NCBI RefSeq assembly: GCF_036373705.1
Contig: NC_089853.1
Location: 27,942,068 to 28,006,067, forward strand
Origin: Amia ocellicauda
Taxonomy: Eukaryota; Chordata; Actinopteri; Amiiformes; Amiidae
Direction of reading: 5' to 3'
Length of the DNA stretch: 64,000 nucleotides
Position numbers and translations under genes: made by a program. Every line of letters starts with the position of its first letter. The stretch's first letter is position 1. Positions 1,368-54,110 of this stretch are shown here, in pieces. Under the pieces are notes generated by a model. That model saw only the letters and a list, made by a program, of their open reading frames with translations. It was not told the origin of the DNA and did not search any database.

Positions 1368-7918
<6,551 letters not shown>

Positions 7919-11933: not shown

Positions 11934-13844
11934 CTACCAGTGCCTGGAATCCACCAGCTCTGGTCGCAGGCTCAGCTTCTTCAGGGTTTCATAGCCCACC
12001 ACCATCACAATGGCCGTGGGTGTGGAGGAGATGATGCGGGCAGACAGCCCCTTAGTCATTCCCCAGAAGCCCTCCTCAGCCAGGAGCTGTTTAAAAGTCT
12101 CAATCACTGAAGACTTGCCTTCCACCTTTAGAAAAGTTAGAAAAAAAAAAAACCATTAATCTCCAGAAAACAATTCACCATATACTTTCTCTCTGGTAGA
12201 CATTTAGGAAGATTTGGTAAAGTTCATATACCAGACAAAAAATAATGCAAGAACTATTTTTTGTATCTTTTATGTTGGATTGTGGTGTTAATTTACCAGA
12301 TGACTTTAATAACCTACAACTGCTTCCTTATTAATCTGTGCCAGATCAACTGTAGATGCATGTTAAAACTGGTGTCTCAGAAAGGTGGTATTGTTCAGAT
12401 TTCAAGTAATTTATTACAACCCCCTTTAGCATTGCTTACTGCAACAAAAACAAAAACTTGCAGAACCTGTATAGTCTCCCTCCCTCTCTCAGGTGTCTCT
12501 CCCCTGTATATAGGATCTCCTGTATTTATAGCATAGAAAAATCACAGGCATTTCAAACATTGCATTCCCAACTATGCAAAAATTACCAGTTAAAGCAAGA
12601 ATTGGAAAAAATACATTAACTTTTTCTGCCTTTGCTACAAACGAGTACAAATTAGATATGCAAAACATCCTATTCTAATAGCAATGCCATTGTGCAAGTT
12701 GTCTATTTGTAAACTGGTCAGCGAGCTTTAAACTTCACCTTTACAAAGCGAGATGTAAAGTTATTTGCAGTTACCTGCACTCTGGCCCGGACTACATCCA
12801 TAGGGTTGGTGACAGTGGAGGCTGTAGCAGCTGCCAAAGGCCCAGCCATGGCTTGAAGGAGCAGGTGTGGGCATTCACTGGGTGCCCATTTAGATAACTG
12901 TTCTGTGAAGAAGGGAGATGTAAAACCTTAATGTTAAATAGTGTCTCATTCTTACACACATTACAATATCTTGTAAAACACATTCAGAGGATTGAAACGT
13001 ATTAGGGACTGCCTGCCTATTTGAAGGGAAAACAGATTAAGGCTGTTACATAAAGCTGTTAAGTGATTTTATGTCTTTTTACCAGCAAAACGTTATAAAC
13101 CCAGGTTAATATGTATACATGCAAATACAGAAAAGAGAGAAATTTTGGCCCACGGAGTTGTTCCAGTGAAGGCTTTGCAAAAGAAAGAATACTTTCCCAT
13201 TGAACTTTACCTGCATAGAAATGATAAAAAGGCCACCAAACTGCACTGTTTGGGATGTACGTTAAGAGGGAGGCAACGTAGCCCCTGTAAAATCCACGGA
13301 AACCATCAGCTGCAAAAATCTGAACTATGATATCTCTGGTCTGGCCAAAAGTCACCTTGTGCTTAGTAGCCAACACCACTGTTTTGGACTTGATTTTGAA
13401 GCGGCCCATGTTGTCTCCTTGGCCTTGCATCATGAGGTGCTGCGAGACGATGTCAATGGGAACCGTGATGCTTTGAGCCACCAGGGAGGCAGACCCTCCG
13501 GCTACCAGCGACTTCAAGGTATTGTTCTCCGAGTAGGTGGACACGTATTTCCTGACAAGCTCATATGTGGTGATGTATCCCTGCCCCGAGATCAAAGTGA
13601 ATGTGTTCACCAGGAATCCCCTGTAGAGTCCGCGGACGCCCTCAGCTCTCAGGATTTTAAAGAAGGCGTCGAACGTGCCGCTGTAGAGGGACTTCCCTTT
13701 CTGCACTTGCAGTCGCGTGCGGATGAGCGTGGCGGGGTACACGGTCGCCCGGATCGTCATGGTCATGAACACCCCGAAGGAGTAGAACTTCCTCTTGTCC
13801 AGGTCCTCCCATTCTATGATCTGAATGTTGCGCTTCTCCTGCAT
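11934..13844 (-). CDS. slc25a44: Solute carrier family 25 member 44, mitochondrial carrier
   Basis: Coding exons in gene order: 13844-13211, 12902-12775, 12125-11934. They join to 317 codons plus stop; the human protein has 314. The start MQEKRNIQIIEWEDLDK and the end LRPELVDSRHW match the family end to end. The fold is three repeats of a two-helix carrier module in the inner mitochondrial membrane. The repeat motifs read PATLIRTRLQ, PIDIVSQHLM and PMDVVRARVQ, so only the second and third keep the acidic residue of the usual P-x-[DE]-x-x-[KR] motif, as in the human protein. In the known family SLC25A44 imports branched-chain amino acids into mitochondria. The gene converges on wdr61 and is divergent from ireb2. 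Codon use in the first exon is GC-rich compared with its surroundings, which creates a long open antisense frame there; I judge that a shadow. Confidence 0.96.
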
Positions 13845-13888
13845 CGTTCTCCCCCACAGCTCCCGTCATCAGATTGGTTTCCAGCTGC
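13845..13888 (-). other. slc25a44: slc25a44 5' UTR part of the first coding exon
   Basis: In the gene direction a strong pyrimidine tract and acceptor (CTTCCTCTCTTCCTCAG) end just before 13888, so at least one non-coding exon lies further right. A possible donor in the gene direction is near 17978 (ACG|GTAAGC), with a TATATAAAG motif upstream near 18040. That link is weak. Confidence 0.5.
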
Positions 13889-18865: not shown

Positions 18866-21800
18866 ATGGCGCTCGCTGCCGCAGCTCAAGGTAAGGGAAC
18901 TGAGCACAACGACATAACAAAAACACAAAACCAGCAGCATGCACTAACTAGCACAGCACCTCGACTGACGCCTTGCGATATCCGTGATAATCGGATGACC
19001 CTTACATATAGTAACTAAGCTAGACTTTCGCCTTTTTATTTATTGTTTACAGACATGCGATTTCTCGTACTTTCATCTTCTAGCAGGTACGATAGGCTAC
19101 CGTTGCCAGTGTTTTAACTCGCCAAGCGGAAATAAAGCTGTTATTTATGTCCTTTAGGACCCAATGAAGTTGTCAATAAAGGTGGTTTATGACCGAGGCA
19201 CCTTTAGACTCGTGTTAAGTGTAACTCTGAGGTGGCCAAATGTTAACACGTCCGGAGTTTCATGAAATGATGAGGGGTCCTTTCTTTCCAGGCCACGGCT
19301 CTTTTCAAGCTGTCAGTATCAACGTGTCAGGAGGTTTCTCTTTATTTACAAAGAAATAAGGCCGACTCAGTGTCTATAGTTTGTTTGTTTGTTTTTTGAC
19401 GTTTCAGTCATTCAATTAATTCTCATGGGGTTGCCTGTTTTGTCATTAGTGAACCAATCTAAATGGTACATATATAACCAAATATATACTGTAATCCATG
19501 GGAGTATTTTTGACGTTGTATTGTAAGACACTTCGAGAGAATGCAATTCCACAGTTATCAGCCCATGCCACTGGCTGTGTGCGGTGTGTTGGATGGGGAA
19601 GATAAAGAGAGGGTGGATCTACACGTAAGAATCCCTAGGCGTTCCCCCAAAATACCTTTATGCCATTTTCCTTCTGCATCATATATATTTAAAGAAATTC
19701 ATCTTCCAGTAAAAGTTTTTTGAATATATATATATATATTAATACATAATTCGTCTTTAATGGTTATTTATCCCTTTTCATAAAATTGTTCAGTCAATAT
19801 GTAGACTGATACAAACATCCAAATAGGCCTCTATCACCAGTTACTTAGATTTTAAAATTAAATTATAGGTGTGTGTATATTATATATACAATTATACACA
19901 CAATCATACACAATTTGATTTGAATCTTATTAAAGTCACAGCATTGTACGTTTCTAATTGTGTATTTAAAAATGATATCCAGCTATTACTAGTTTTTTTT
20001 TTTTTTATGGGAGCATGGTTATTTAAACAATTTACTTTATTTAATTCAATTTAAATGGTATTCCTCTAAATTTAGAAAATACTAAAACCATAATAGTGTT
20101 TAGTTATGAAGTGTACATGCATTTGGAGCTAATTACAGTAATGGGATAATAGCACATAATGAGCACAGGAATGCACTACTAATGTGCTTGAGCATGACAT
20201 TTTTTATTGTTGTGTTTTGAAGCCTTCATGTTTTATTGGTTTAATTATAATTTAATTAGCATGTAAAGAAATTAGATTTACATTGGTCATCAAAAAAGGT
20301 GAAGAAGGCAGTATATAGCTTAAACAGGAAGGAAATGCAGTTGATGTTGGCTAAAAAATAATCTTTGTTTATGCAACTTGAAAAATGCAGGTGCTGTATG
20401 ATCAAAAACTGGTGTGCAAGCTTTGAACCAAAACTAATTTCTCTAGTTGTTTTCAATGACTGACCCCCCCGAGACCATACATTAATTTGATCCGTAAAAT
20501 CAAAGGCATGCTAGTTCTATCAAGATCCATTCAAGTTCTTATACTTGAGAAAGGCATGCCTGTGGAATCTGGGAATCATTTTAAAACATTGGTGCAGTGC
20601 CGATTTAAGAAACTGCTGCATTGTAATCTGTTCAGATATTTCTGTACAGCCTAAAATGAACTTAATGAGCACACCATGCAGTTTTGCATTGCTCCCACTT
20701 CAAAAGAGTTCAGGCAGGTCAGATAGAAAGGCCAAATCACTCTCAGGGCTTGTAGTGTGAGCACATAGCTTTACAGGTAAAACTTAAGGTTAAAGATTAA
20801 ACACATTTCATTAAGACTGAACAACATTGCCCGGTAATGTCTTATGCTGGAGTTGACAGGCAAGCCAATAATACTTAAATCAGTTTTTTTAGCTATGTGA
20901 ATTAAGGACATTCTTGATTCTAGCACATGCTGTCACCCCACCTGTGACGTGTTTAATAATCAAATTATAAACAAAACCATGTTGATATTGCTCTCAATAG
21001 CAATGGTCTTCATATGGGCATTTTAGGAGCTATTCCTGACTGTATAAGTAAATGTAGAGGCACACTTAAAAAGGAGGGAGTTTCTAACGAAAACCATTAT
21101 ATTTTTCAGACCACCCTTACCAAAATCTGATCGACACCTTGAAAAATGTTAGTTCCAAAGACAGACATTTTTTTAACCTTCAGAAACTCAATGACCCAAG
21201 ATATGGTAAGTACACAAATGCAAAAAAAAAAAAAAAAAAAAAATCATGCTTTGGCCCTCCGTTTCAGATTGCTATTGGCTTAATTGCTATTTGTCATTAA
21301 ATGCAGGTCAGCTGTAACTAAATAAAAATAAAGAATCCTTTTAAACTGAAGTGTAGTGTAATGGTTTAATTGTCATCGTTTTCTATCAACACAGATGCGT
21401 TGCCTTTTTCAATCCGTGTCTTGCTGGAAGCTGCAGTCCGCAAGTGCGATGGCTTTTACGTGAAAAAGGAGGATGTCTTGAACATCCTGGACTGGTGCCA
21501 GCAGCAGAGCAGTGTTGAAGTGCCATTCTCCCCTGCGCGGGTCCTCCTCCAGGACTTCACGTGAGTTCAAGGCTCCACACTTCCTAAAAGAAACTCAGGC
21601 TGTGTCTGCAGTACCAGTCACCTGTTGATACATCTGCTGTTTTCACCCTAAGGATTCATGGCTAGGCTACCTTGACAATACTGTGACCTTTTTCTGAAAT
21701 ATGTGGTAATGATCTTGTTTGTCAATAATGACTGGCTGTGATTATGTTCTCCTATGACTCACAGCAGGCTTATTTGTGACACCCCCCCCGCCAGGATATG

Positions 21801-24800
21801 GTCTATATTATGCAGCTACCTGGATACAATTTGTTTAAACTTTTTTGTATGTATTCATTGTGTTTTTGTCCTTACAGGGGTATTCCAGCTATGGTGGATT
21901 TAGCTGCAATGAGAGACGCAGTGAATAAACAAGGAGGTGATCCAGAGCAGGTTAACCCTCTGTGTCACACTGATCTCATCGTAGACCATTCATTACAGAT
22001 CGACTTCAGCAAATGGTACTTTTGCTTTGCAGTTTAACTTCCTGATTATTTTCTGCGGTTGTTAAAAATACATTATAACACCATTGTTTTGAGCTGTACA
22101 TTACTCTTTGCAACTTTAATTTTCGTATTTTTAGTGTATTACCCAGCTGAACAGGCTTCACATACCCTTAACAAAACCTATAGTAACTTTAACAAATAAC
22201 ACTGTTATGTCCTGATGGTAATTTCAGTTCCATCTGGTAATGTCTGCAGTATTTGCAAATCATATATAAGCATAACAGATCCCGTTAACAGTGTGGGTTT
22301 GGTATGCTTCTCAGTAACCTCCTATATGTTTAATGTAGTCTTATGTACTGCAGTTTGCAAGGGCGTCTTCTGTGAAGTAAATGTGTTCTGTTATTGCAGT
22401 GCAATTCAGAACTCGCCAAACCCAGGTGGAGGGGAAGGTCAGGGAGCAGCTGCCAGGTCCTCTCCTGCCAAGCCTCAGCCCCGGGGTGCCCAGTGTGGAG
22501 GGCAGAGGGGCTGCAGAGGGTCCTGTAATGAAGGCACCGCTACCTCAGGAAAATCGACTGCTGTCCAGATCGAAAACACACCAATCCTCTGTCCCTTTCA
22601 TCTACAGCCTGTTTCTGAGTATGATTTATGTTTTTTTTTTGTGTTGATGGTTTTGATAATAAACTAAACTGTGCCTAAAAAAAAAAAAAAAAAAAAACAA
22701 TATTAGATCTAAAGTGGTAGTTTAATTTCTGTTTATCTTAACAGTCCAGAAACCACCTTGAAGAATCAAGAAGTGGAGCTGAACAGAAATAAGGAGAGGC
22801 TGCAGTTCTTTAAGGTATGTTGTCTGAGTATCGAAACTTATTTGCTTCTTCCCAAGTCAGGAGGTTATCTGGGCAAATTCTATAAAAACTTGCATTTATT
22901 TATTATATATCTTTACATTATATATGAACATGTTTGTCCATTTCACCCCTTTTACAGTTCATGGAACCTTTTAATAAAAGTAATTAAATTGGCCTGCAGT
23001 CTTTCTATTAATAAAGTATAGAAGATTGCCTGCCATATATGTATGGACAAGCATAGACTTCAAAGAAGTGTACAGATAAAACATAAATTGTAGTTTAATA
23101 CCGTGTGGAGGACATGATTCTGGCTAGTAGCCTCCACAAGTGTCGATAGCTAATTCATTTTCTTTAATTAGTTGCACTGCAGGCTCTTAAGACAGAGATT
23201 ATTTTAAAACCTCTGCTGCTACTCAACCAGAATACAAAACAAAACTAAATGAATTTTAAGTCAAAATTCTACATATGACAGATTAATGATAAAGGCTTTC
23301 AAATAATTGATTTACAGTAATCCTTTGGCAATGACATTTCTTGCAGGTAGCCAAGTTAAACGTGATTTTTGAGTGTTTTAATTCCATCAGTCATTTTTGT
23401 TTTTGTTTTTCCAGTGGTGCTCAAAAGCATTTACAAATGTGAATGTAGTCCCCCCGGATGCAGGAGCCATCCACCAAGTGAACTTGGAGTACCTGTCAAG
23501 TGTGGTGCGTGACGATGTTGGCTTTCTCTACCCTGACAGCGTGGTTGGTACAGACTCGCACACCACCATGATTAATGGGCTGGGGATTTTGGGCTGGGGT
23601 AAGCTATATTTCATTTATTTTGTTATAATGAACATGGATTTTATGCTGTCTGATATAATTTTCCATGTCTATCTTAAAATTATAAAAGGTATTAATTTTG
23701 TACACTGCATATGTAGAAGGAATTATTTATCATTTTGTGGTATATTTGCAATTAAGAATTATACCAATATTATCATCCTTTTTAGGCAGTAAATAAGTGT
23801 CTCTCATTGTGCATCTGTTTCAGGGGTGGGTGGTATTGAATCGGAAGCTGTTATGCTGGGCCAGCCGATCTCTTTGACTTTACCCCAGGTGGTCGGGTGC
23901 AAGCTTGTTGGATCCATTAACATGTTGGCTACGTCCATAGACATTGTCCTTGGTATTACAAAGGTATGGGAATACATAACATGTTGTAGTGGTCTGTGTA
24001 CTTTTAAACTCTTCATCTCTCATTCACAAACTCTTGTCATTTGCAGCACCTTCGACAGGCTGGTATTGCTGGTAGATTCGTGGAGTTCTTTGGGCCAGGG
24101 GTCTGTCAGCTGTCTGCTGCAGACCGGACTACAATTGCCAACATGTGCCCAGAGTACAACGCCACTGTGAGCTTTTTCCCTGTCGATGATGTAACACTTA
24201 AGCACTTGAAACAAACAAGTAAGAACATGTCAACTGACGCTTTTCTTTTTCTTTATTAAAAAAACAATGATTAAATTCATGTTTCTGCAGCTTGACTACA
24301 GATATGTTGTGTACTCATAATTAATGGTTAATTTTTATTTTTATTCCGGTATTTATACAAGGCACATTTTTGTCGATTGACTTTGGTTTTAACTGTGCTG
24401 TGAAACAAAGCTTCTCTGTTTATTTTTTATTTTTTAGAATTTAGTGAAGAGAAACTTGACATAATGGAAGCTTACCTCAAAGCTGTGAAACTGTTTAGAA
24501 ACTATCAGGACCCGTCAGAAGATCCACAGTATTCTGAGGTGAGGTTTTGCTTTTTCACTTATCACAATGTTTTGTAAGATTTCTCTTTCGACTTGGTTTT
24601 CTTGATGCATCTTCTAGATAATAGTATCCCTGTGTAGAATTACATTAACTTAAAGACAATTATTGTGTTATGCTGACATCATGGCCACTAATAGATCCAT
24701 ATTTTGAATAACCCAAAACATAACTGGCATCCTGGGGAAAATATACTGGGCACAGTAACCTACAATTAAACTAGTATTGTATTGTAACTGTAATATGAGA

Positions 24801-27800
24801 CTGATAAGGATATTAGATCCCTTTACTTATACATTCCCCAGAAAAGTAATGTTTTACTCAAACAAACAACTGCAAAGCCTTTTACCATTTTTTTTTCCGA
24901 TGTTACCTCAGGTAATAGAAATAAACCTAAGTTCCATCATTCCCCATGTGAGTGGCCCCAAGCGACCGCAGGACAGGGTGGCTGTTTCCAACATGAAGAA
25001 AGATTTTTTAAACTGTCTAAACGAGAAGGTAAGTCATTGGCTTGATGGATGTAGTTCTATTTCAGTTCAGAATTCTTTGTTTTGTTTGTTGTTAGGGAAG
25101 ATGTTCACACCCCATTCTGTTGCCTTTGGTAATGTATATCTGCTCCGGATATCTGAAAAGAATGAATTTGCAAAGCACCTTTGTTTTAAAGCCTACTGCA
25201 GCTGAGTTCCTTGTTTCTTCTGTAGAAAAATGCAATATAACTACAACCCCATTGTAGTGGACTGGTACACTTCAGTATTTAATTGAGAAACATTTACTTT
25301 GATACCCGATTTGCAATTAAACTTTTTCCTTTGTGTTGTAGGTGAGCTTTAAAGGCTTCCACATTCCCTGTGAAAAACAGGAGACTGTGATGCCCTTCCT
25401 TCATGAAGGAACAGAGTACAAGCTTGCTCATGGCTCTGTTGTTATTGCTGCTGTGATCAGCTGCACAAACAATTGCAACCCCTCTGTCATGCTGGCGGCA
25501 GGTACGTGTCGTAGTGCAGAGTTTCTTGTTCACAAACCTCTTAACTTAAGGAGTGAGATTTAAAATTCTGATGTGCAGAGTTTAATGGCAGTCTATGTGC
25601 TCTAGGGCTGCTTGCGAAAAAGGCAGTGGAGGCCGGCCTGACCGTTAAACCTTACATAAGGACAAGCTTGGCACCTGGGAGTGGAATGGTGACTCACTAC
25701 CTTAGTGCAAGTGGTGTATTACCTTACCTCAGTGTGCTTGGGTATGTATTGCCTGCTGAGGGTAATTATTCAAAAATATGTGAATTCTCAAGATGTATAT
25801 ACATAGATTAAGCTCTTTGGATTAAAAATATAATTTTTCACATTTCTCAAGTGGCTCCCCTTTCTCTTATAGGCAGATGAACTGGGGATAAATGGCAATA
25901 AAGAACTGGAAACTATAAAGAATATTTTTCTATATTTCAATGGTCATTAATATCGAACTTAGTTTGATTCTCTAAACATTTCATGTTCACCTTCTTGACC
26001 TTTTCATATTATTACATGAAGACATACATTCTGAAATGTTACTTAATGTATTTTATAAATGTGTACTGTCTATCATGGCTTTCCTTGATATTTGTGTCAC
26101 AGGTTTGAAGTGATTGGTTATGGGTGTGCCACCTGCGTGGGAAATATGGCCCCACTTCCAGAGGCAGTTGTTGATGCTATTAAACAGGTAGAGTTAACAT
26201 ATAATTTGCTTTATTTTCCTCACCTGTTACAGTAAATGTAATGTGGTTTGACCTCCATTTAGTGGTGCAATTATGAAAGGATACATTAGTTTAGTGTAAT
26301 GTCTACATTGCATGTCTTTTTTTTTTAAGAAAATGTTTCCACAGACCTAGCAATTATTTTGTTCTGTTTTTTTGGAAATTGTAGATTCCTTAGGCAAAGC
26401 TTTGTTTCATGGATCACCAGTCAGCTTTTAACAAAATAAATTCAAATGACATCTAGTTTAGACAGCAGATGGGGACAACAGAAATCAATGGAAAAAGTAA
26501 CCAGAGCCAAGTTATAGACTAGGCGGTGAATAATACAAACCTCTTTACACTCTTTTTACAGGGAGATTTAGTTGCCTGCGGTGTGCTCTCTGGAAACAGA
26601 AACTTTGAAGGCCGTCTGTGTGAGTGTGTGCGTGCCAACTACCTCGCCTCCCCCCCTCTTGTGGTAGCTTACGCTATCGCTGGCACTGTTGGCATCGACT
26701 TCGAAACAGAACCTCTGGGTAGGCACTGCCATAACCGTGGTTCACTTCAGGCCTCAGCTGTGGTGTTTATACTGTTCGGGATGCAGCACCAGGAGTACGA
26801 GGTGTATCCAGTCTTAACAATATTGAAATCTGATTTTGCTACAGGCGTGACTGCTGACGGTAAAGAGGTGTATCTTCGTGAAGTGTGGCCCACGAGAGAA
26901 GAGCTCCAGCAGACTGAGGAGCAGAGTATCATCCCATCCATGTTCGCAGATGTAAAAGAGAGAATGGAGGTCAGTCTGGATTTAAGTTGTACATGGACTG
27001 TGAGACATTGTCAGCAATTATAAATAGAGAGCTTCTGTCCTTCAGTATGTTACACCTGCTGGATTTCAGCTGTGTTCTTGTTTTGTTTTTGTTTTTTTTA
27101 TAGAAAGGAAACAAATTGTGGAACAGTCTTGAAGCCCCAGAATGTACCTTGTTCCCTTGGGATCCCAAATCTACATATATTCGGTGTCCTTCATTTTTTC
27201 AGAAACTTGTAAGTTCCAGTTAAAATATTAATTAATCTGTTCCATGTCCATGAAATAGAACAGTGGTATTCAGTTGTTGTTTTTTTACAGATGTGCATTT
27301 TTCAGCTCCTGGAATGAATGACAGGAATTGAAACACATTCTTTTCTATTCTTCTATTTGAAAAGCTGATTGATACAATGTCACATGTTTGAGACCTCAGT
27401 GGGAGGCTTTTTAGTCTTCTGACCGTGTGAAACGGGATAACCTCTAAATGAAACCTTTCTCTGTTGCAGACTAAAGAGGCACCTCCTCCACAGTCCATCG
27501 AGAATGCCCATGCGTTGCTCTTTTTGGGGGACATGGTCACAACCGATCACATTTCACCCGCCGGAAGTATAGCCCGGGTGAGCGCTGCTGCCAAATACCT
27601 GACAACCAAACGGTAAGAGTCTCTTCTCAGGGCCAATAGTATTGAGCTCAAAATGTGTTCGATATCACAAAATAATTTTCAGCCAACTACAATTTAATTG
27701 TAATTTGGACTACATTTATGTCAGTCCGAAGCTGGAGCTATAATAGACTTTCACCATTGAAGCTTGAAAACACTTAAAGAAGGATTGAACCTATGTTAAG

Positions 27801-30466
27801 AATATCCAAAATGAACTGGTTTCAGTGGGTAGCATATTATATTGAATGGATGTTTGTGACGTTACGTAACCTCAGTGTTTAATCCTCCTTCAGCTTGACA
27901 CCTCGAGAGTTTAACTCGTATGGGGCTCGCCGAGGGAATGATGCTGTGATGACGAGAGGCACCTTCGCGAGCATCAAGCTGCAGAATCGCTTCATTGGGA
28001 AGACAGGCCCAAAGACGCTGCACATCCCCTCAGGACAGACGGTACGCAAATGTGTCTGGGATCAATTGCTTTTGTTTTGTAAAACTCTGATCACAGATAA
28101 GGGGCAGCAGCTTATGATTTCTTTTATTTTGCTACCTTGGCTGTGTTGAGATCAATGTTGCCAATTTGAAGACGTTTCCTTAATCGACCGTCAACATCGT
28201 AAAAGATCAATCAATCAATTAATCTTATTAAAAAGTGGGGGGTTTTGCCTATGACAGGAAATCTCCAATGTGTGTTTTTTCCTAAATAAAATCTCTATTT
28301 TAACAAGATGTGGACATATTTGACACCATGTAGATAACGGCAGCACAACGCTCTTACCTCATTTTTGGATTAAACATGAAAACATTATATTTTAAAACAG
28401 AAATTAAGTCAAAAGATCAATCAAAAATAAGGTGTTTTTAACCTATATTTAAAGAACATAAAACAATTGGACTCCCCATCTTTGGATGAGTATTACATTT
28501 AAATGACTGGCAGTAAGTCACCATATATCCACTGCCTCATTTAGTTTTTCTGCAAGGTGGTCCGCTGTGTGTCGGACTGGCAGACTTTTGGTTAACAGCA
28601 CTGCGGACTTCACCTTCCAATCATCGCTGATGTAATGGCAGATGATGGTGATGTAACTCTCCGCGGTCAAGGCAGTCCAGTAGTCGGTAGTTAGGGACAC
28701 CTTCTCTATTGTAGCCAATTGTGCTTTAAGATCTGCATTATTTTCTCTGGCGCGCCTTTCTATGCGCCGGTGACTGTGCCTCGCGATGGAACGCTATATC
28801 CTGGTTCCATCAAATTCATTAAGCCCCGAAAACCTTTGCCAGCAACAATATTTATTGACATCATATCTTTCTCTGTTAACCGGCAAATCTCTTGTGAGAT
28901 CCTCTCTGCCCGATGTTCATTAGTTATTTCTAGCATCTAGTTATTAACATCCCTAGTTACCTGCATGACAAAAAATATCTCCTTCTGAAGCTTGTGAGAG
29001 CTCCATATATAGACCACATCAGTGCTGTTTTCCCCACCTCTTATCTCTCTTCAGTTGTGAATGAGTTGATTCTGTAGAGCCTGTCTTGTGCTCGTGGTGA
29101 CTTTTTTTTTCTGTGTTGCAGCTGGATGTGTTTGAGGCAGCAGAAAGATACCAGAGGGAGGGCATCCCAGTCATCATTCTGGCAGGCAAGAAGTATGGCT
29201 CTGGAAACTCACGAGACTGGGCTGCCAAAGGACCCTATCTACTGGTAATTTCCCTGATACTTCCTTTTCAAGTATGAATAAATGGGGGTTACCTTCCCAA
29301 TCCAACAAGCTTTCTGTCATATGGGAATTCAGCAGTTGCTCACAATTTGATCTCCAAAGGTCATTTATTCCTTTTCCATGTTCCACACAGTTTGAATTAA
29401 AGCTATTAAAGTCTCATATCTAAGATCTGTATCTGTACACCACAATACAATCATCTTGGTTTATCCATGCTGATCTCTGTACAGTTGCCAGAAGAATTTA
29501 CCTAAGCAGGTGTTCTTTGTCTGAGGGTTGTTTTGTCCCTTCCTGCTTCAGGGCGTGAAAGCGGTCATCGCAGAGAGCTTTGAAAGGATGCATAAGAACC
29601 ATCTGGTCGGCATTGGGATTGCTCCTCTTCAGTTCCTGCCTGGAGAGAGTGCTGATGTGCTAGGCCTGTCTGGAAAAGAGAAATTCTCCATTTCAATTCC
29701 AGAAGTCCTCTCCCCAAGACAGGAGCTCACTGTAAAGGTAGGTAATCTATTGAAGCGTGTGTTTCCAAAACAGATGTTGCAGTAGGCAGGGCAGCACTAA
29801 TACGCCTACCTACAAACCCCTTCCCATTTCTACCTTTCACTGTTTGTGCATTCCCTTGTTTGTGCAACTGTATGGTCATGAACACATTTCAAATTAAAAG
29901 ATGTAGTTAAAAAGAAATACGAACATGCATGCTTTCATGTTTTGGGGACAAGGCTATAAATCCCCTCCCTGCAGTTTGGCTTTCTATTTTTAGTACTTTG
30001 TGAAATAATGATGAAATCCTCAAAACAACAAATCACTTTGCTTTGGAGATAACACTCCAGTGAGGACATTTCTAACCTATCTGCCACTTCATTGTGTAAG
30101 CCTGCTGCACAGTTGTGTAACTAACACTATAGTTAGGTTCCTGTGCATTCTGTTACAACATATTTATCGGAATTAAACACTTACATGCTGCCTTTGTTGT
30201 TTCTTTAATATAACTGAAAGGCATTGTCAAAAATATACATACAATTGTATGAAAGTGACTCCAAATTGAGATAATTATCTTGGGATTAAAAGTATTGTTA
30301 TATGCATAAACATTTTAATTTCCTTTTTTTCTTTACTTTATAGGCAAGCAGTGGGAAGATCTTCAAAGTGATTGCCCTGTTTGAAAATGAAATGGATATA
30401 GTTTTTTTCAAACAAGGAGGGATCCTTAAATATGTGTCTCGAAACATGTTACAGCACTTGCCTTGA
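18866..30466 (+). CDS. ireb2: Iron-responsive element-binding protein 2 (IRP2)
   Basis: Coding exons: 18866-18890, 21110-21205, 21395-21560, 21878-22015, 22400-22618, 22745-22814, 23415-23598, 23824-23963, 24047-24218, 24438-24538, 24912-25028, 25342-25501, 25606-25741, 26103-26187, 26562-26718, 26845-26969, 27104-27208, 27470-27612, 27894-28041, 29122-29244, 29552-29737, 30344-30466. These make 972 codons plus stop (human 963), with all phases consistent. The protein has the aconitase fold and binds iron-responsive hairpins in ferritin and transferrin-receptor mRNAs. It is IRP2, not IRP1, because exon 22400-22618 encodes the IRP2-specific insert, with the conserved spacing C174-x5-C180-x3-C184. 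The three cysteines that match the IRP1 cluster ligands are present at C517 (SCTNNC), C583 and C586 (GYGCATC). The N-terminus ([11 protein letters not shown]) and the C-terminal tail (MLQHLP) differ from human. An intron holds a hAT fragment. Confidence 0.98.
22658..22697 (+). other. AATAAA plus poly(A) tract just inside an ireb2 intron
   Basis: AATAAA at 22658-22663 is followed after about 14 bases by a run of about 21 A. It begins only 40 bases after the donor of the exon that encodes the IRP2-specific insert. It may be an intronic polyadenylation site, the tail of a small retro-insertion, or chance. Confidence 0.4.
28518..28936 (-). pseudogene. hAT-family transposase fragment in an ireb2 intron
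   Basis: In the complementary direction, a first piece reads with [17 protein letters not shown] and [16 protein letters not shown] frame shift near 28770 leads into a second piece with [17 protein letters not shown] and [13 protein letters not shown]. The order and motifs (PGY-VPSR, then LTTD-WT---ES) are those of ZBED-like hAT transposases. The zinc finger at the N-terminus and the C-terminal dimerisation region are absent, so it is a broken fragment opposite in strand to ireb2. Confidence 0.85.
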
Positions 30467-33833: not shown

Positions 33834-38945
<5,112 letters not shown>

Positions 38946-43363: not shown

Positions 43364-46300
43364 TCATTCTTCATCTGAAGTGCTCTGATCCAGAGAGTAG
43401 ACCATGAACAGGATGTCTGGCCGGGTGGGCACTGAGGGGTGGCCTGGTTTCACAATCTCAAAGCCCAGGTAATGGAAAGTCTTTGTGATAGACACTGCAA
43501 GATATGGAAAGCAAGCAAAGAAAAATCATTACACATTCCCAGCCAGATCCTCTAGTGAGTTGTTTGATGTGTCTAGGAAACTTGTCTTCGGAGAAAAATT
43601 AAAAGGGTGAACATGTTGACAACAGTTTTGTTTTTAGAGACTCATACATGACTCTTCTGAGCTTAATACATAACACTGGTACCATGGTTTGACAGGTTCT
43701 CAGCTCAGTTTTACAACATGGGCATGTGAACTGTGCTAGCAAAACAAACTGCAAAATTGTCTCTTACATCGATCGTCTCTGCTTTTGTAAAACCACAGAA
43801 AAACATAATTGACTTTCAACTTCTCTTCTGCAAACTCCAGTAGAACAGTCAGTCTGCAACAGAGAGAGAGAGAGAGAGAAATTATATATATGCAGATTTA
43901 TGTAAAAGTTCCATGTTACATAATATCAGCTGTATTTCTCTTCCGAGTTTGCTCTCAGTGTTGCTATATTTGCTTCTTTCTGTTGTCTTTGTTTTTAAAC
44001 AAAGTGCTTTTTGGTCAGTACCTTGCGGACATGATCTAAAAACTGTAGTTGTGTGGGAGACAGGAATGATAACAAAAAGGTTGAGAGCAGCACTTTAGTT
44101 CTTGATATTTGTGTGGAGGTGTCATCTGTTAAGGATTTAGGTTAGCAGTGATTAAAAGACACCATTGTAATGCTGTGCTCTACAGTTAGTGTTTAACATC
44201 CCTGCAATTTTTTCTTCTTCTGATAAATGGAAATTCAGAATATTGTGCAATTGCTTGAGTAACCATGACTGTGTTACTAACTGGGAGGTTGTTAAGCATA
44301 AAATATGGTATCTTGAGATTTTAGTTTGTGACTATTTGGCTAGTGACTCATAATGGTTACTGAAGTATGACTTGACTTTTTCAGAAGAATCTAGAGTGGT
44401 CTACAGCTTGTTATACAGGATACACATATCATAGTATATTCCAACTTTTCCCGAGATATGTTGCAAAGTGACAACCTCTTGCCGCTCCTGACACCTAGGG
44501 AGATCTTGCTGGAGAGAGCAAGCAGCTGAAGAGAAAAGATTTGGCCTGATAGTGTGCCCTCACCCCTCCTTGCTTCCTTCTGGTAATGCCCCCTCTGCAA
44601 TCTCCAGGAAGAGGCTGCCTCCAGACAGCACAGCCTCCCAGTAGGACACCCGGGTCTCGCTCAGCTGGTACTGGAAGTACAGAACTGGTGGCGTCCCATT
44701 AACTGGAGCAGCCTGCGTTACTGTGAGTCTGTCATCCTAAAGCAGGAGAAAGGAAGAGGTCTGTGATTTGCCTTTTGCATTTCAGAGAGATCTAGACTAG
44801 GTAATATGTTGTCATTAATTAACATCCCTTTTGAACAGTGAAATAGCTTCTTTTTTTGAGAACAGATGAGTTTGACATGATATGTCATACACTGGGAAAG
44901 TGAAAAAGAAGATAACATTACGTTCTTGCTCAACATCCTGAAGTAATTATATCACATCCATTTGTTTTCTAGTTTATTCACTGCAGGCTCCTGCATGTTT
45001 GAAAAGGGAATCTGAATCTAATCACCTGGCCTATTTGTACTCACTTTAACCAAAGAGGCCTTTTTGAGATGTATTTTATACTACAGACCAGTATTGAAAA
45101 AAAATAACCAACCCATACTGGGCAGTTCCATTCCAAAAGAAGATCGGGATTATTTTAGCATTGTTGTTTCTCACAATAGTCTGACTTTAATACTGACTTT
45201 TTATTCAGTATTTTAATTTTGCAACATAAAACTTTACAGAATGTAGGAATTAGTTGTTCATAGCTTGTCTGAACTGTAGTGACATAAATTGCATTGGGCA
45301 CAGGGCTGAGGAAACTGTTGCTTTAAGATTCAAGCTGTTCTTCATGATCAAGCCATTAGTCAGCCACCACTGCTTTGATAACACAGGCTCTTTCAGGTGT
45401 GCGGATGGTAACGGCACAGATATTTATGATCCGTCTGATCCTGATCCGCTCAGCGCTCGGGCTTGGCTCATGCTTATTATCCTTTATTAACAACAGCAGA
45501 CAAGCTGGCAAAGGTGACATTTCCCAAATGAAGCAGCCTTTCATTACCATGCATTCATCTACAGATGTGAAGTTCTTTTCAAATGCAAAACTCACCCCAG
45601 TAATGGAAGAACTGTGTTTTAAACTCTGAACCATTGGTCATTTTATTAACCCTGCTATTTACCCTCATAGTTACAAGGCAAAACTGTCCAACACCACCAA
45701 CTCCAAGCTAAGGAGACGTGTTCCTTCTATGTAGTCCATCTGGTAAAAGGTAGATCGTATCCTGTACCCAGCTGAAATGTCATGAATTCACAGAGCTAAA
45801 TTCACTACAGCTAGACCTTGGGGCTACGTGACTTGACAGAGGGAATATTGCATTGATTTACCGAGTGCTGAGCTGAACTGGAGTCAGTAATGTATACATG
45901 TCCGAAATGGAGACCAGATTTAACCTGCATTTCTGGTGGCGTTTCCTCACAGGAAAGGAGTACGATTTGTACTTTTAACACCAACATGTTGTCACATAGT
46001 CTGTGCAGAAGGTTTGACAATTTAAAGGAGTCAGACGATTTCTTAACAATGTATGAAAAATATTACTATGGTTTCACTTATGATTTATGGTAAGTATGTG
46101 TAAACTATACTACTTTGGAACCTTGTAAAGAACCAAGCTATAAGAACATCTAAATTAAATCTGATGATCTGTAACTAGGTTTAATGATATTAGTAGTTTC
46201 CATTTCTCATCCACAAGTAATTACTTTAATGGCTTGGAGAGCCTAATTTATATACAGATTATATCTAATCTCTAATCAGGAATTTGAATACTCATTTTGC

Positions 46301-49300
46301 TCTGTATTAATTTACTAGCAATTGGTCTGTGATTAAGTACTCTTAATGGCAAGTAGAAAGTTTAATCCTTGAATATAGGTTGTGGAAAATTACTAGAATG
46401 TTCTATGTTGCATCTTATATGTGTAGCTGAAATGGTCAGTAGCAATGAATGAATGCCTTTAAAAGCAGTTTGGCTATTCTAGGGGGGAGATTCAGAGTCG
46501 GCAAAAATTTTGAAAACACTATGTATTTTTCTCTTTCTAGATTGTGTCAGCGTAAAATACATTTTGTAGAGAGATGTCGTAAGAAACAGGAACTAAGTGC
46601 AGGTTTTGTTTAAACAATGGGTTTATCATGATAGGAAACAATAATAATAAAAAGTTACTGCGGACTTCCTGTGTTTCTTCAGAACATGTCCAGGCTTGCT
46701 TGTTGCGTATGATATGTTATTATGAGTCCCAGATTGAATTAAGCAGGAAATTAACAAAGCCTAATGCCATTAATGGTTACAAATACACATTTATGTCATT
46801 GGAGAAACATATCTGTTTGTATTTCTTTTTGAATACAATTGATTATAAGGGATACCTTATAATACCTGAACTAAAATATATACTTAGTTTGGTTTCAGTA
46901 TTATGTCAATCCTGCTTGCTTACACTGGGTTTGTGGAAGTTTGAGCTACTTGAAACAAACTAACGGATAAAGAAAGAGCATTTTTATAAAGTGTTATGAA
47001 TACTAACCCTGGGTCAAATGCTCAATGGCATTGTAATGGGGAATACCAATCTGACTGGGAAACTACTGCTATTAATGTGCACTACAGGTGAAGCGGGGAA
47101 GGCCCTGCCCGGTCTTACCTTGTGTAGGAGCACAGTGAGAGAGTGATCCCTGCCAGTCCCTCGCCCACCCGGGATCTTCACTAGTGGGTGAGGGGCATCA
47201 GGAGCACCACAGAGGCCCTGGAGCCTGGTGCCTGGTGCAGTGGAGCTTGGAGCCCATTAACGAGGTACTAATGTGGGGAGACAGAGACTTTAGATGAGGC
47301 AGTACCTTATCCTGGATACTACTACCCAGAGGTATTTGAAATGGCAGATTATTATTTCTTAATTAGTTAAATAATCATCATCATCATCATCATAATAGTC
47401 ATAACATTTTAAATTGGCAGCCATGTTCTTTGTGCTATAAGCGGGAGGCATGTGAGTTTAATATACATTTAAAAAAAAAAATACAAAAATCAAACGGGTT
47501 GTATTTTATAGGCAAACCAGCGTTGATTGGTAAACTCTTCAGTCTTCAGTATCATAGCACCCGTTCCAGTGCTGACTGAACACTCCTCGACTGCTCAACC
47601 CAGCTCTGAACAAAGCCCTAGTCGCCAGCTATAGCACAATCTGCGTCATCGTAGTTGACCTGCACTGACCTAGATTGGATCCCTATAGTCTGGCTGACGT
47701 TGCATCATACGATTAAGACCTCTGCTGAAAGTGATTCCCGTAGCTGTTAACTTCACTGAGCCGATCCAATGCATGAAGCACGGGTGATGATGGGTAATTA
47801 AATTATTGTTATTTTTATATATATATCTTGAGACTGATGTCACTGCCACAGTCATAAGACTCTGACAGAATTACAGGGTTTGTCTTCAAACTGTCATCAT
47901 CTGCACTGTTGATGTTGTCTATTTAATTCGTTTTACTTCATGTGTAGACTAGTGAAAGATCCGTTATCCCTGCCGAACTCACATCACTGCTGTTTAATCA
48001 CCACTGATAAAGGCAGGCATCTCAGAAGATTGTTGGGTTAGAGCATTTCAGAAATGATCTGAGAATAGAGTTCTCTAATTATTTGCTTTAACTGCTTTGG
48101 AGTACTGCAGCTTTAAAGTAAATTGGAGGTTTAATCTTGGAGGAGAGCCAGAGGTGGGTGTTTGCATCACAAATAATCACATGACCGCGTCTGTTCTGTA
48201 AACACGTCTGCAAATAGCTTGGTAGCCAAAAACACACGTCTGGTTCTTAGGTTACAGTGCAGAATTTCTGTCCAGAAATGATAGCCCCCCACTGCAGCCC
48301 ACAATCACATTCCCCCCTTTCATTTAGAAGATAAGCTTCTGTTATCGGTCACCAGGGCTGCAAGCAAACACACAACACAGCCTTTCAATTCCATAATTAG
48401 TTCTGTTCACATTAAGTATTCACAACCTTCACAACGGTAGTACACAGATTGCCAAGGCCAAGCCCCATCTCGAACACTGAATTGTCAATATCCCTGGGCC
48501 AGAAGGTCTCCAATTGAAACTCTTGAAACACGCGCACACACACACACACACACGCCTGCACAGACTACATGGTCTTTGTGTGGAGGTACACATTCCTTAA
48601 AATATGGTAGAAGAAACCACAGATATGAGAATTCTCAAAATCAATTACAGCTCGTTTTCTGAACCAATAGGATGTCCACCCTGTATTTTCACTAGCAGTT
48701 AGGCCTTTATGCATCACCCTCATGATATAATACCATGTTTATTCTGCATCAGATAATGTTGACTGCACAAGCAACAGGAAACCGATTTGTCAGATGAGCT
48801 TCTTATCAAAGCAGACCCACTTGCAAGTGAAGTAGTAAACTAGGAGGCAGGCAGGCAAAAAGGAGCATCTGTCCAAACTTTAAGGTTTAAACGGCATTAG
48901 TGAAGAATTGATTTCATAAGCACATACATAAAGAGGATGAACCAAAAAGTGCTGGGTTCCCTTTCTGGAGCTGTAGAACTTGTTAAACAAATGTGGCAAG
49001 GATTTTAATCAACAAGGTTTAATTATAGTTTTCGAAGAGAAACTCAAACTAAATGCCACTAATGCTATTGGAAGCAACCTGAAATGTAAGTTGAGGTGCC
49101 GAGTCTCATTCAGTACTTCTGGAATGTGTTAAATGAACATTGTGTTATTATTGTTTCTGTTATTTTGTTTTCTCCCATTTCCCCCACACAACTATCTAAA
49201 ACAATGACACCTAAATACCATACATCTTCATGAAGATAAACATCAGTGTTAGTGAGGAAAATGAAATGAAATACATTCTCTGGGAATAATGTTAAGGCTG

Positions 49301-53589: not shown

Positions 53590-53864
53590 ATACATGTATT
53601 CCTTTGTAACACTTATGTTGTAGTAGTGATATGCATTTTAAAATGCAATGGTACTTGAAATAAACAGGAGTTGCAGAAAGTTCTATCAAAAGCTAATCAC
53701 AGGCTATAGACTGCATGGAGACAAGCAAGGTACCCATTACTTATACATTAAAGACCAGAATGAACGTAAATTGCAAAGTCTTCTTCATTTAAACAGCATC
53801 GTAAAGTACAGTGCAGTAAATCGTGCACATCTCACTACACCTACCTTTCTTCACTATTTAGCAT
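43364..53864 (-). CDS. oaz2: Ornithine decarboxylase antizyme 2-like, +1 frameshift gene
   Basis: Coding exons in gene order: 53864-53845, 47267-47119, 44736-44564, 43853-43768, 43494-43364. Frame 0 starts MLNSEES and ends at PLWCS with a TGA at 47200-47198. A +1 shift continues in [14 protein letters not shown] and runs to the end [14 protein letters not shown], giving about 185 residues (human OAZ2 has 189). Antizyme binds ornithine decarboxylase monomers, sends them to the 26S proteasome without ubiquitin, and inhibits polyamine uptake. The core contains [21 protein letters not shown] and [14 protein letters not shown]2 is chosen over OAZ1 from the N-terminus and from the DQSTSDEE end, although VLSGGSLF and GALPEGSK are OAZ1-like. 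Expression is expected to rise with polyamines through the frameshift. Exon 1 is short; I chose it because its phase and residues both fit. Intron 1 is 6.6 kb. Confidence 0.93.
43861..43879. repeat. (AG)n run serving as a polypyrimidine tract
   Basis: In the antizyme direction this reads as a (CT)n run directly before the acceptor of exon 43853-43768 (TGTTGCAG), so the microsatellite probably acts as the splice-site pyrimidine tract. Confidence 0.7.
44737..47118 (-). other. Antizyme intron 2
   Basis: Intron of 2.4 kb. An ATGATAAAC at about 46633-46625 resembles the human OAZ2 start but lies downstream of the frameshift exon, so it cannot be the first exon. No nested gene was seen. Confidence 0.6.
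47145..47209 (-). promoter_or_regulatory. oaz2: Programmed +1 ribosomal frameshift site and pseudoknot
   Basis: In the gene direction the shift site is TGG TGC TCC TGA, with the stop codon at 47200-47198. A stem can form between 47194-47184 and 47168-47158, with 10 of 11 bases paired. The loop segment GATCCC at 47176-47171 is complementary to GGGATC at 47150-47145, which makes an H-type pseudoknot starting three bases after the stop. This is the known arrangement of vertebrate antizyme mRNAs. Confidence 0.92.
47268..53844 (-). other. Antizyme intron 1
   Basis: Intron of 6.6 kb without recognised coding sequence. It holds short microsatellites: (ATC)n about 47372-47391, (CA)n 48534-48553, (AAT)n about 53023-53040 and (GTA)n 53558-53589. 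Long stretches such as 50.4-52.8 kb have no repeat signature and could hold conserved regulatory elements, which cannot be judged from one sequence. Confidence 0.55.
53558..53589. repeat. (GTA)n microsatellite
   Basis: About ten trinucleotide units. Confidence 0.95.
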
Positions 53865-54110
53865 GATCACTTCGGAGGAATCGAGATGTATATTGTATCC
53901 TTTCTGACAACCAAAGCAGTGACTATTTAATAGAAGCTCCACGGAGCGGTTCACCATCCGTAAAAAAACCGTCAGGATCACTGAAACATCCCCAGTTTGC
54001 CTTTGTCTCTTCTCTCCGGACCAGGATATTTTGTAAACACTTTAACTGTCAGTTACAATGCTCAGTTACAATGTGGCTAAATGATTGCTTCAGGTTATTT
54101 AAACACCAAG
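53865..54110 (-). promoter_or_regulatory. oaz2: Antizyme 5' UTR and putative promoter region
   Basis: This lies directly upstream of the chosen ATG in the gene direction. It has moderate CpG content (53930-54020), a directly repeated TCAGTTACAATG at about 54048-54059 and 54062-54073, and no clear TATA box. The transcription start is not determined. Confidence 0.4.

Follow-up and report, generated by a model that had tools for sequence, protein, structure and literature searches.

The window, a 64-kb stretch of DNA at C4:27942068-28006067, carries on its minus strand a gene that we rebuilt from five exons, with coding parts extending from 53957 to 43364. The evidence described below leaves us almost certain that the locus is an intact gene for ornithine decarboxylase antizyme, with an OAZ2-like body and a programmed +1 frameshift cassette, from what is probably a bony fish. 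The exons are as follows:

53845..53957 (-), exon 1, coding part; ATG at 53957-53955, donor GTAGGT, phase fitting exon 2
47119..47267 (-), exon 2, with the end of ORF1, the shift site and the start of ORF2; acceptor ...CCCCACATTAG, donor GTAAGA
44564..44736 (-), exon 3
43768..43853 (-), exon 4
43364..43494 (-), exon 5, coding part, with the ORF2 stop codon

Reading frames and protein homology of the antizyme gene

All four introns are GT-AG, and ORF1 and ORF2 are both open to their expected stops. ORF1 begins MVNRSVELLLNSHCF... and ends APGPLWCS* after 60 codons; ORF2 adds 156 residues, giving a +1-shifted product of 216 aa. The gene has an intact ORF1 with an overlapping ORF2, as expected of an antizyme gene. 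Exon 1 can be aligned with the first exons of the genome's other two antizyme genes, on C8 and C28 (MVKSNLQ.ILNSHCF). The nearest in-frame upstream stop lies 29 codons 5' of the ATG, and the 400 bases before the start contain three ATGs, all out of frame, and no in-frame ATG. A second in-frame AUG is present in ORF1 at codon 32 (codons 29 and 26 in the genes on C8 and C28, respectively). A three-codon upstream ORF (ATG TTT CAG TGA; 53989-53978, minus strand) starts 32 bases before the antizyme ATG.

The +1 product carries the Pfam domain ODC_AZ (PF02100) with 71.3 bits against a cut-off of 24.2 (E 8.2e-20), and the whole ORF2 product matches human antizyme 1 (PDB 5bwa) with an E value of 9.8e-51. 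The zero-frame product is identified as antizyme by its alignment to the C8 and C28 genes. The proposal in the initial annotation that the products of both frames are antizyme is therefore borne out, as is its expectation that a plain zero-frame reading ends at 47198. Comparing the ORF2 product with its relatives, we counted 102/156 identical residues (65%) with a provisional reference sequence for human OAZ2, 84/156 (54%) with human OAZ1 (PDB 5bwa), 82/156 with the C8 gene, and 80/156 with the C28 gene. Based on these identities, the body of the antizyme in the window is OAZ2-like. By the criterion that an OAZ2 orthologue should have an ORF2 nearer to OAZ2 than to OAZ1, it lies on the OAZ2 side (65% versus 54%, with the provisional OAZ2 reference).

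Anatomy of the frameshift cassette

The cassette, which had been described without a strand, lies on the minus strand and consists of the following elements:

47198..47203 (-), shift site UCC-UGA, read from the sequence; the UGA is also inside the Rfam match
47184..47194 (-), pseudoknot stem 1, 5' arm, 10/11 paired
47158..47168 (-), pseudoknot stem 1, 3' arm, pairing with 47194-47184
47171..47176 (-), pseudoknot stem 2, loop strand GAUCCC, by direct pairing measurement
47145..47150 (-), pseudoknot stem 2, downstream strand GGGAUC, by direct pairing measurement
47145..47200 (-), Rfam RF00381 (Antizyme_FSE), 59/59 model positions, 72.4 bits

Members of this class have a shift codon followed by the UGA that closes ORF1, in most cases as UCC-UGA; here, TCC (47203-47201) is followed directly by TGA (47200-47198) and a 3-nt spacer (47197-47195). 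The predicted pseudoknot starts 3 nt past the UGA. In its stem 1, a single A-C position of the 11 is unpaired, and in stem 2, 47176-47171 and 47150-47145 can form 6/6 pairs. The shift site immediately before the stop, the 10-of-11-pair stem starting three bases past it and the six-base loop-to-downstream pairing had all been reported in the initial annotation, and our measurements agree with each of them.

Its further claim that the cassette is complete is supported by the Rfam match, which extends from 47200 to 47145 over model positions 1-59 of 59 (E 1.1e-14). RF00381 was the sole Rfam family to exceed its own gathering score within the 64-kb window. Because the match is full length and, at 72.4 bits, exceeds the gathering score of 40 bits, it indicates homology beyond chance. 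The RF00381 model includes the stop codon, the spacer and stem 1, and the pseudoknot strands fall within its matched positions; the cassette in the window departs from the consensus in that 3 bases fewer separate stem 1 from the downstream strand of the pseudoknot. In this segment (47157-47151, minus strand), it lacks 3 bases that are present at both OAZ1-like loci, and its RF00381 score is about 10 bits lower.

Taken by itself, the structure is less striking, departing only modestly from chance: both helices arose in 232/20000 trials of random synonymous recoding of the +1-frame peptide and in 44/20000 trials of base shuffling. The nested fold of 47145-47209 was not unusually stable (z -0.89; 36/200 shuffles equally stable), and the minimum-energy nested fold of this segment, computed with a program that cannot model pseudoknots, pairs the shift site and forms no pseudoknot. 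The 16/16 pseudoknot pairs are invariant across the three antizyme paralogues of this genome. A loss of pairing, which had been named as a refuting outcome, is thus not seen among these paralogues; since the 16 pairs are unchanged in all three, covariation gives no support.

We considered two rival readings. In the first, only the cassette has been retained, and the locus is otherwise a processed or decayed pseudogene of antizyme. Antizyme retrocopies occur in other animals, which speaks for such an origin; however, the gene has five exons, GT-AG introns and two open frames, and its exon layout is of the same kind as that at both other antizyme loci. As the GT-AG introns and the open frames show that the gene is no retrocopy, we give this reading almost no credence. 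In the second, splicing takes out the TGA and makes a frameshift unnecessary. We found no evidence in the sequence of the locus in favor of such removal, and the exon that holds the TGA, 149 bases long, has a canonical acceptor and donor. We rejected a form that skips exon 2, because several stops interrupt the frame that results when exon 1 is spliced directly to exon 3, so that no antizyme would be made. A spliced form without the TGA, the other outcome that had been named as refuting, is accordingly contradicted by the sequence for this splice form, and it is exceedingly improbable that the frameshift is dispensable. An intact gene with a frameshift cassette is instead supported by the Rfam match, the exact anatomy, the five-exon GT-AG model, PF02100, 5bwa and two further loci with the same 16 pairs.

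Proposed function of the cassette

By analogy with the antizyme family, ribosomes would translate the 60 codons of ORF1 as far as UCC-UGA, where one share of them would terminate. At high polyamine levels, a larger share would slip by +1, with the nascent ORF1 peptide and the pseudoknot beyond the stop both assisting, and would enter ORF2 to make the 216-residue antizyme. This protein would bind and inhibit ornithine decarboxylase, and polyamine synthesis would fall. The scheme follows the published mechanism, in which polyamines raise the +1 slip at the end of ORF1 and the product inhibits ornithine decarboxylase (PMC2375905, Background; PMC5009743, section 17). The sequence elements, gene structure, homology and paralogues were established in the present analysis; that ribosomes slip here, that they do so in response to polyamines and that the protein acts as described is probable and inferred from the family.

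By its sequence, the cassette in the window is a textbook +1 element of the polyamine-sensing type: real, complete, ordinary and already known. Because such elements are textbook knowledge, have an Rfam family of their own and are the subject of a published antizyme detection tool, OAF (PMC2375905), the interest initially assigned to the locus was overstated. By our analysis, the cassette is intact, and it marks a place at which automatic gene annotation would go wrong. A modest interest remains in the history of the fish antizyme paralogues and in the weak-signal AZR.

Three antizyme loci in the genome

We searched the genome (988 Mb in 385 contigs) with RF00381, PF02100 and the window protein. 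The RF00381 search scored 67 of 128250 first-look candidates and gave three matches at E <= 0.001, on C8 (83.1 bits), on C28 (82.0 bits) and in the window (72.4 bits). At E <= 10, the PF02100 search (8/8 candidates scored) gave seven matches, six of which are exons of the three antizyme loci, and the protein search (14/14 candidates scored) gave 12, of which 11 are exons of the same loci. Across the genome, no fourth antizyme locus was found with these three queries.

The remaining Pfam match, a weak one on C7 (17.6 bits), was rejected on the grounds that tblastn with the window protein in the surrounding 4 kb gave no better than E 1.6. The remaining protein match, a weak one on C5 (19.5 bits; tblastn E 2e-6 in 8 kb), was rejected because Pfam assigns it, with 97.2 bits, to an exon of AMP deaminase; TCCTGATGC is absent from the 8 kb around it.

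The C8 and C28 genes have a five-exon layout like that of the gene in the window, their exons 4 and 5 each having the same length as its own, and their ORF1 starts MVKSNLQ.ILNSHCF. ORF1 ends in Gly-Pro-Gly-Pro-Leu-Trp-Cys-Ser on C8, in Pro-Cys-Pro-Gly-Pro-Arg-Trp-Cys-Ser on C28, and in Ala-Pro-Gly-Pro-Leu-Trp-Cys-Ser in the window. Judged by sequence, the C8 and C28 genes are OAZ1-like, and no second OAZ2-type locus was found by the RF00381, PF02100 and protein searches. The presence of two OAZ1-like genes suggests that the host is a teleost.

Relationship to OAZ2, OAZ1 and AZR

In Table 2 of PMC5009743, the junction is given as Gly-Pro-Gly-Pro for the zebrafish short form, as Pro-Cys-Pro-Gly-Pro for the zebrafish long form, as Ala-Pro-Gly-Pro for the zebrafish brain-and-retina antizyme (AZR) and as Val-Pro-Gly-Pro for mammalian antizyme 2; Gly-Pro-Gly-Pro is also given there for frog, bird and mammalian antizyme 1. 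Based on that table, the junctions on C8 and C28 equal those of the zebrafish short and long forms, respectively. The gene in the window shares features with all three types of antizyme. Like vertebrate OAZ1, with its long and short forms in fish, it has the same kind of cassette, an ORF1 starting MV... and including LNSHCF, and a second in-frame AUG in ORF1, the last resembling the start pair of mammalian antizyme 1, in which the favored second start codon is 34 codons downstream (PMC5009743, section 17); it differs from OAZ1 in its ORF2 product, which is 51-54% identical (80 to 84 of 156). To OAZ2 it is linked by the 102/156 identities with the provisional human reference, but its ORF1 begins like the OAZ1-like genes of the genome and its junction is Ala-Pro-Gly-Pro rather than the mammalian Val-Pro-Gly-Pro of the table, a residue that may not define OAZ2 in fish. 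With zebrafish AZR it shares Ala-Pro-Gly-Pro at codons -8 to -5; its cassette reaches 72.4 bits, whereas the AZR shift signals, which we compared by their description in PMC5009743, are called weaker or intermediate there.

It is possible, although we rather doubt it, that the gene in the window is the counterpart of zebrafish AZR and that a canonical OAZ2 is absent from the genome; the frameshift would be unchanged. Such an assignment is consistent with the tabulated junction, which is the zebrafish brain-and-retina form and not that of mammalian antizyme 2, with the fit of the C28 and C8 junctions to the zebrafish long and short forms, with the OAZ1-like start of ORF1 and with the lack of another OAZ2-type locus in our three genome searches. 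However, the junction matches are weak labels, because Ala- and Val-Pro-Gly-Pro differ by one residue and the table also gives Gly-Pro-Gly-Pro for antizyme 1 of frog, bird and mammals. The 72.4 bits of the cassette likewise contrast with AZR signals described as weaker or intermediate, and section 17 of PMC5009743 describes AZR as occurring only in zebrafish and other minnows. A less probable and speculative extension is that fishes have an old third antizyme lineage, which combines an OAZ1-like start with an OAZ2-like body and keeps its shift signals at full strength, and that the gene in the window belongs to it. Minnow AZR would be the copy of this lineage that survived in weakened form, and hence an OAZ2-type gene by inheritance, not one that arose in the minnows.

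Other genes and elements in the window

The WD-repeat gene at 2410-6886 (plus strand) has one piece (2410-2616) that matches WDR61/SKIC8 in PDB, ranked after designed propellers, and later exons that were placed by eye. Inside this region lies a putative Tc1/mariner-like transposase remnant (3585-4148, plus strand), also recognized by eye; its part at 3585-3902 had no Pfam match, and 3924-4145 matched DDE_3 with 14.1 bits, below the cut-off. A mitochondrial carrier gene, which we take to be SLC25A44-like, was identified by Pfam Mito_carr in three pieces at 11937-13865 (minus strand). An aconitase-family gene, presumably IREB2, extends from about 21370 to 29785 (plus strand); three pieces from 23382 on were found by Pfam, and the piece at 21370-21561, for which there was no telling Pfam match, was included by eye. 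A putative hAT-type transposase remnant at 28521-28936 (minus strand) was recognized by eye and had no Pfam match. Downstream of the aconitase-family gene, PSMA4 (proteasome subunit alpha type-4; 35011-38945, plus strand) and the antizyme gene face each other tail to tail; two PSMA4 exons were identified by Pfam, one of these also by PDB, and the remainder by eye.
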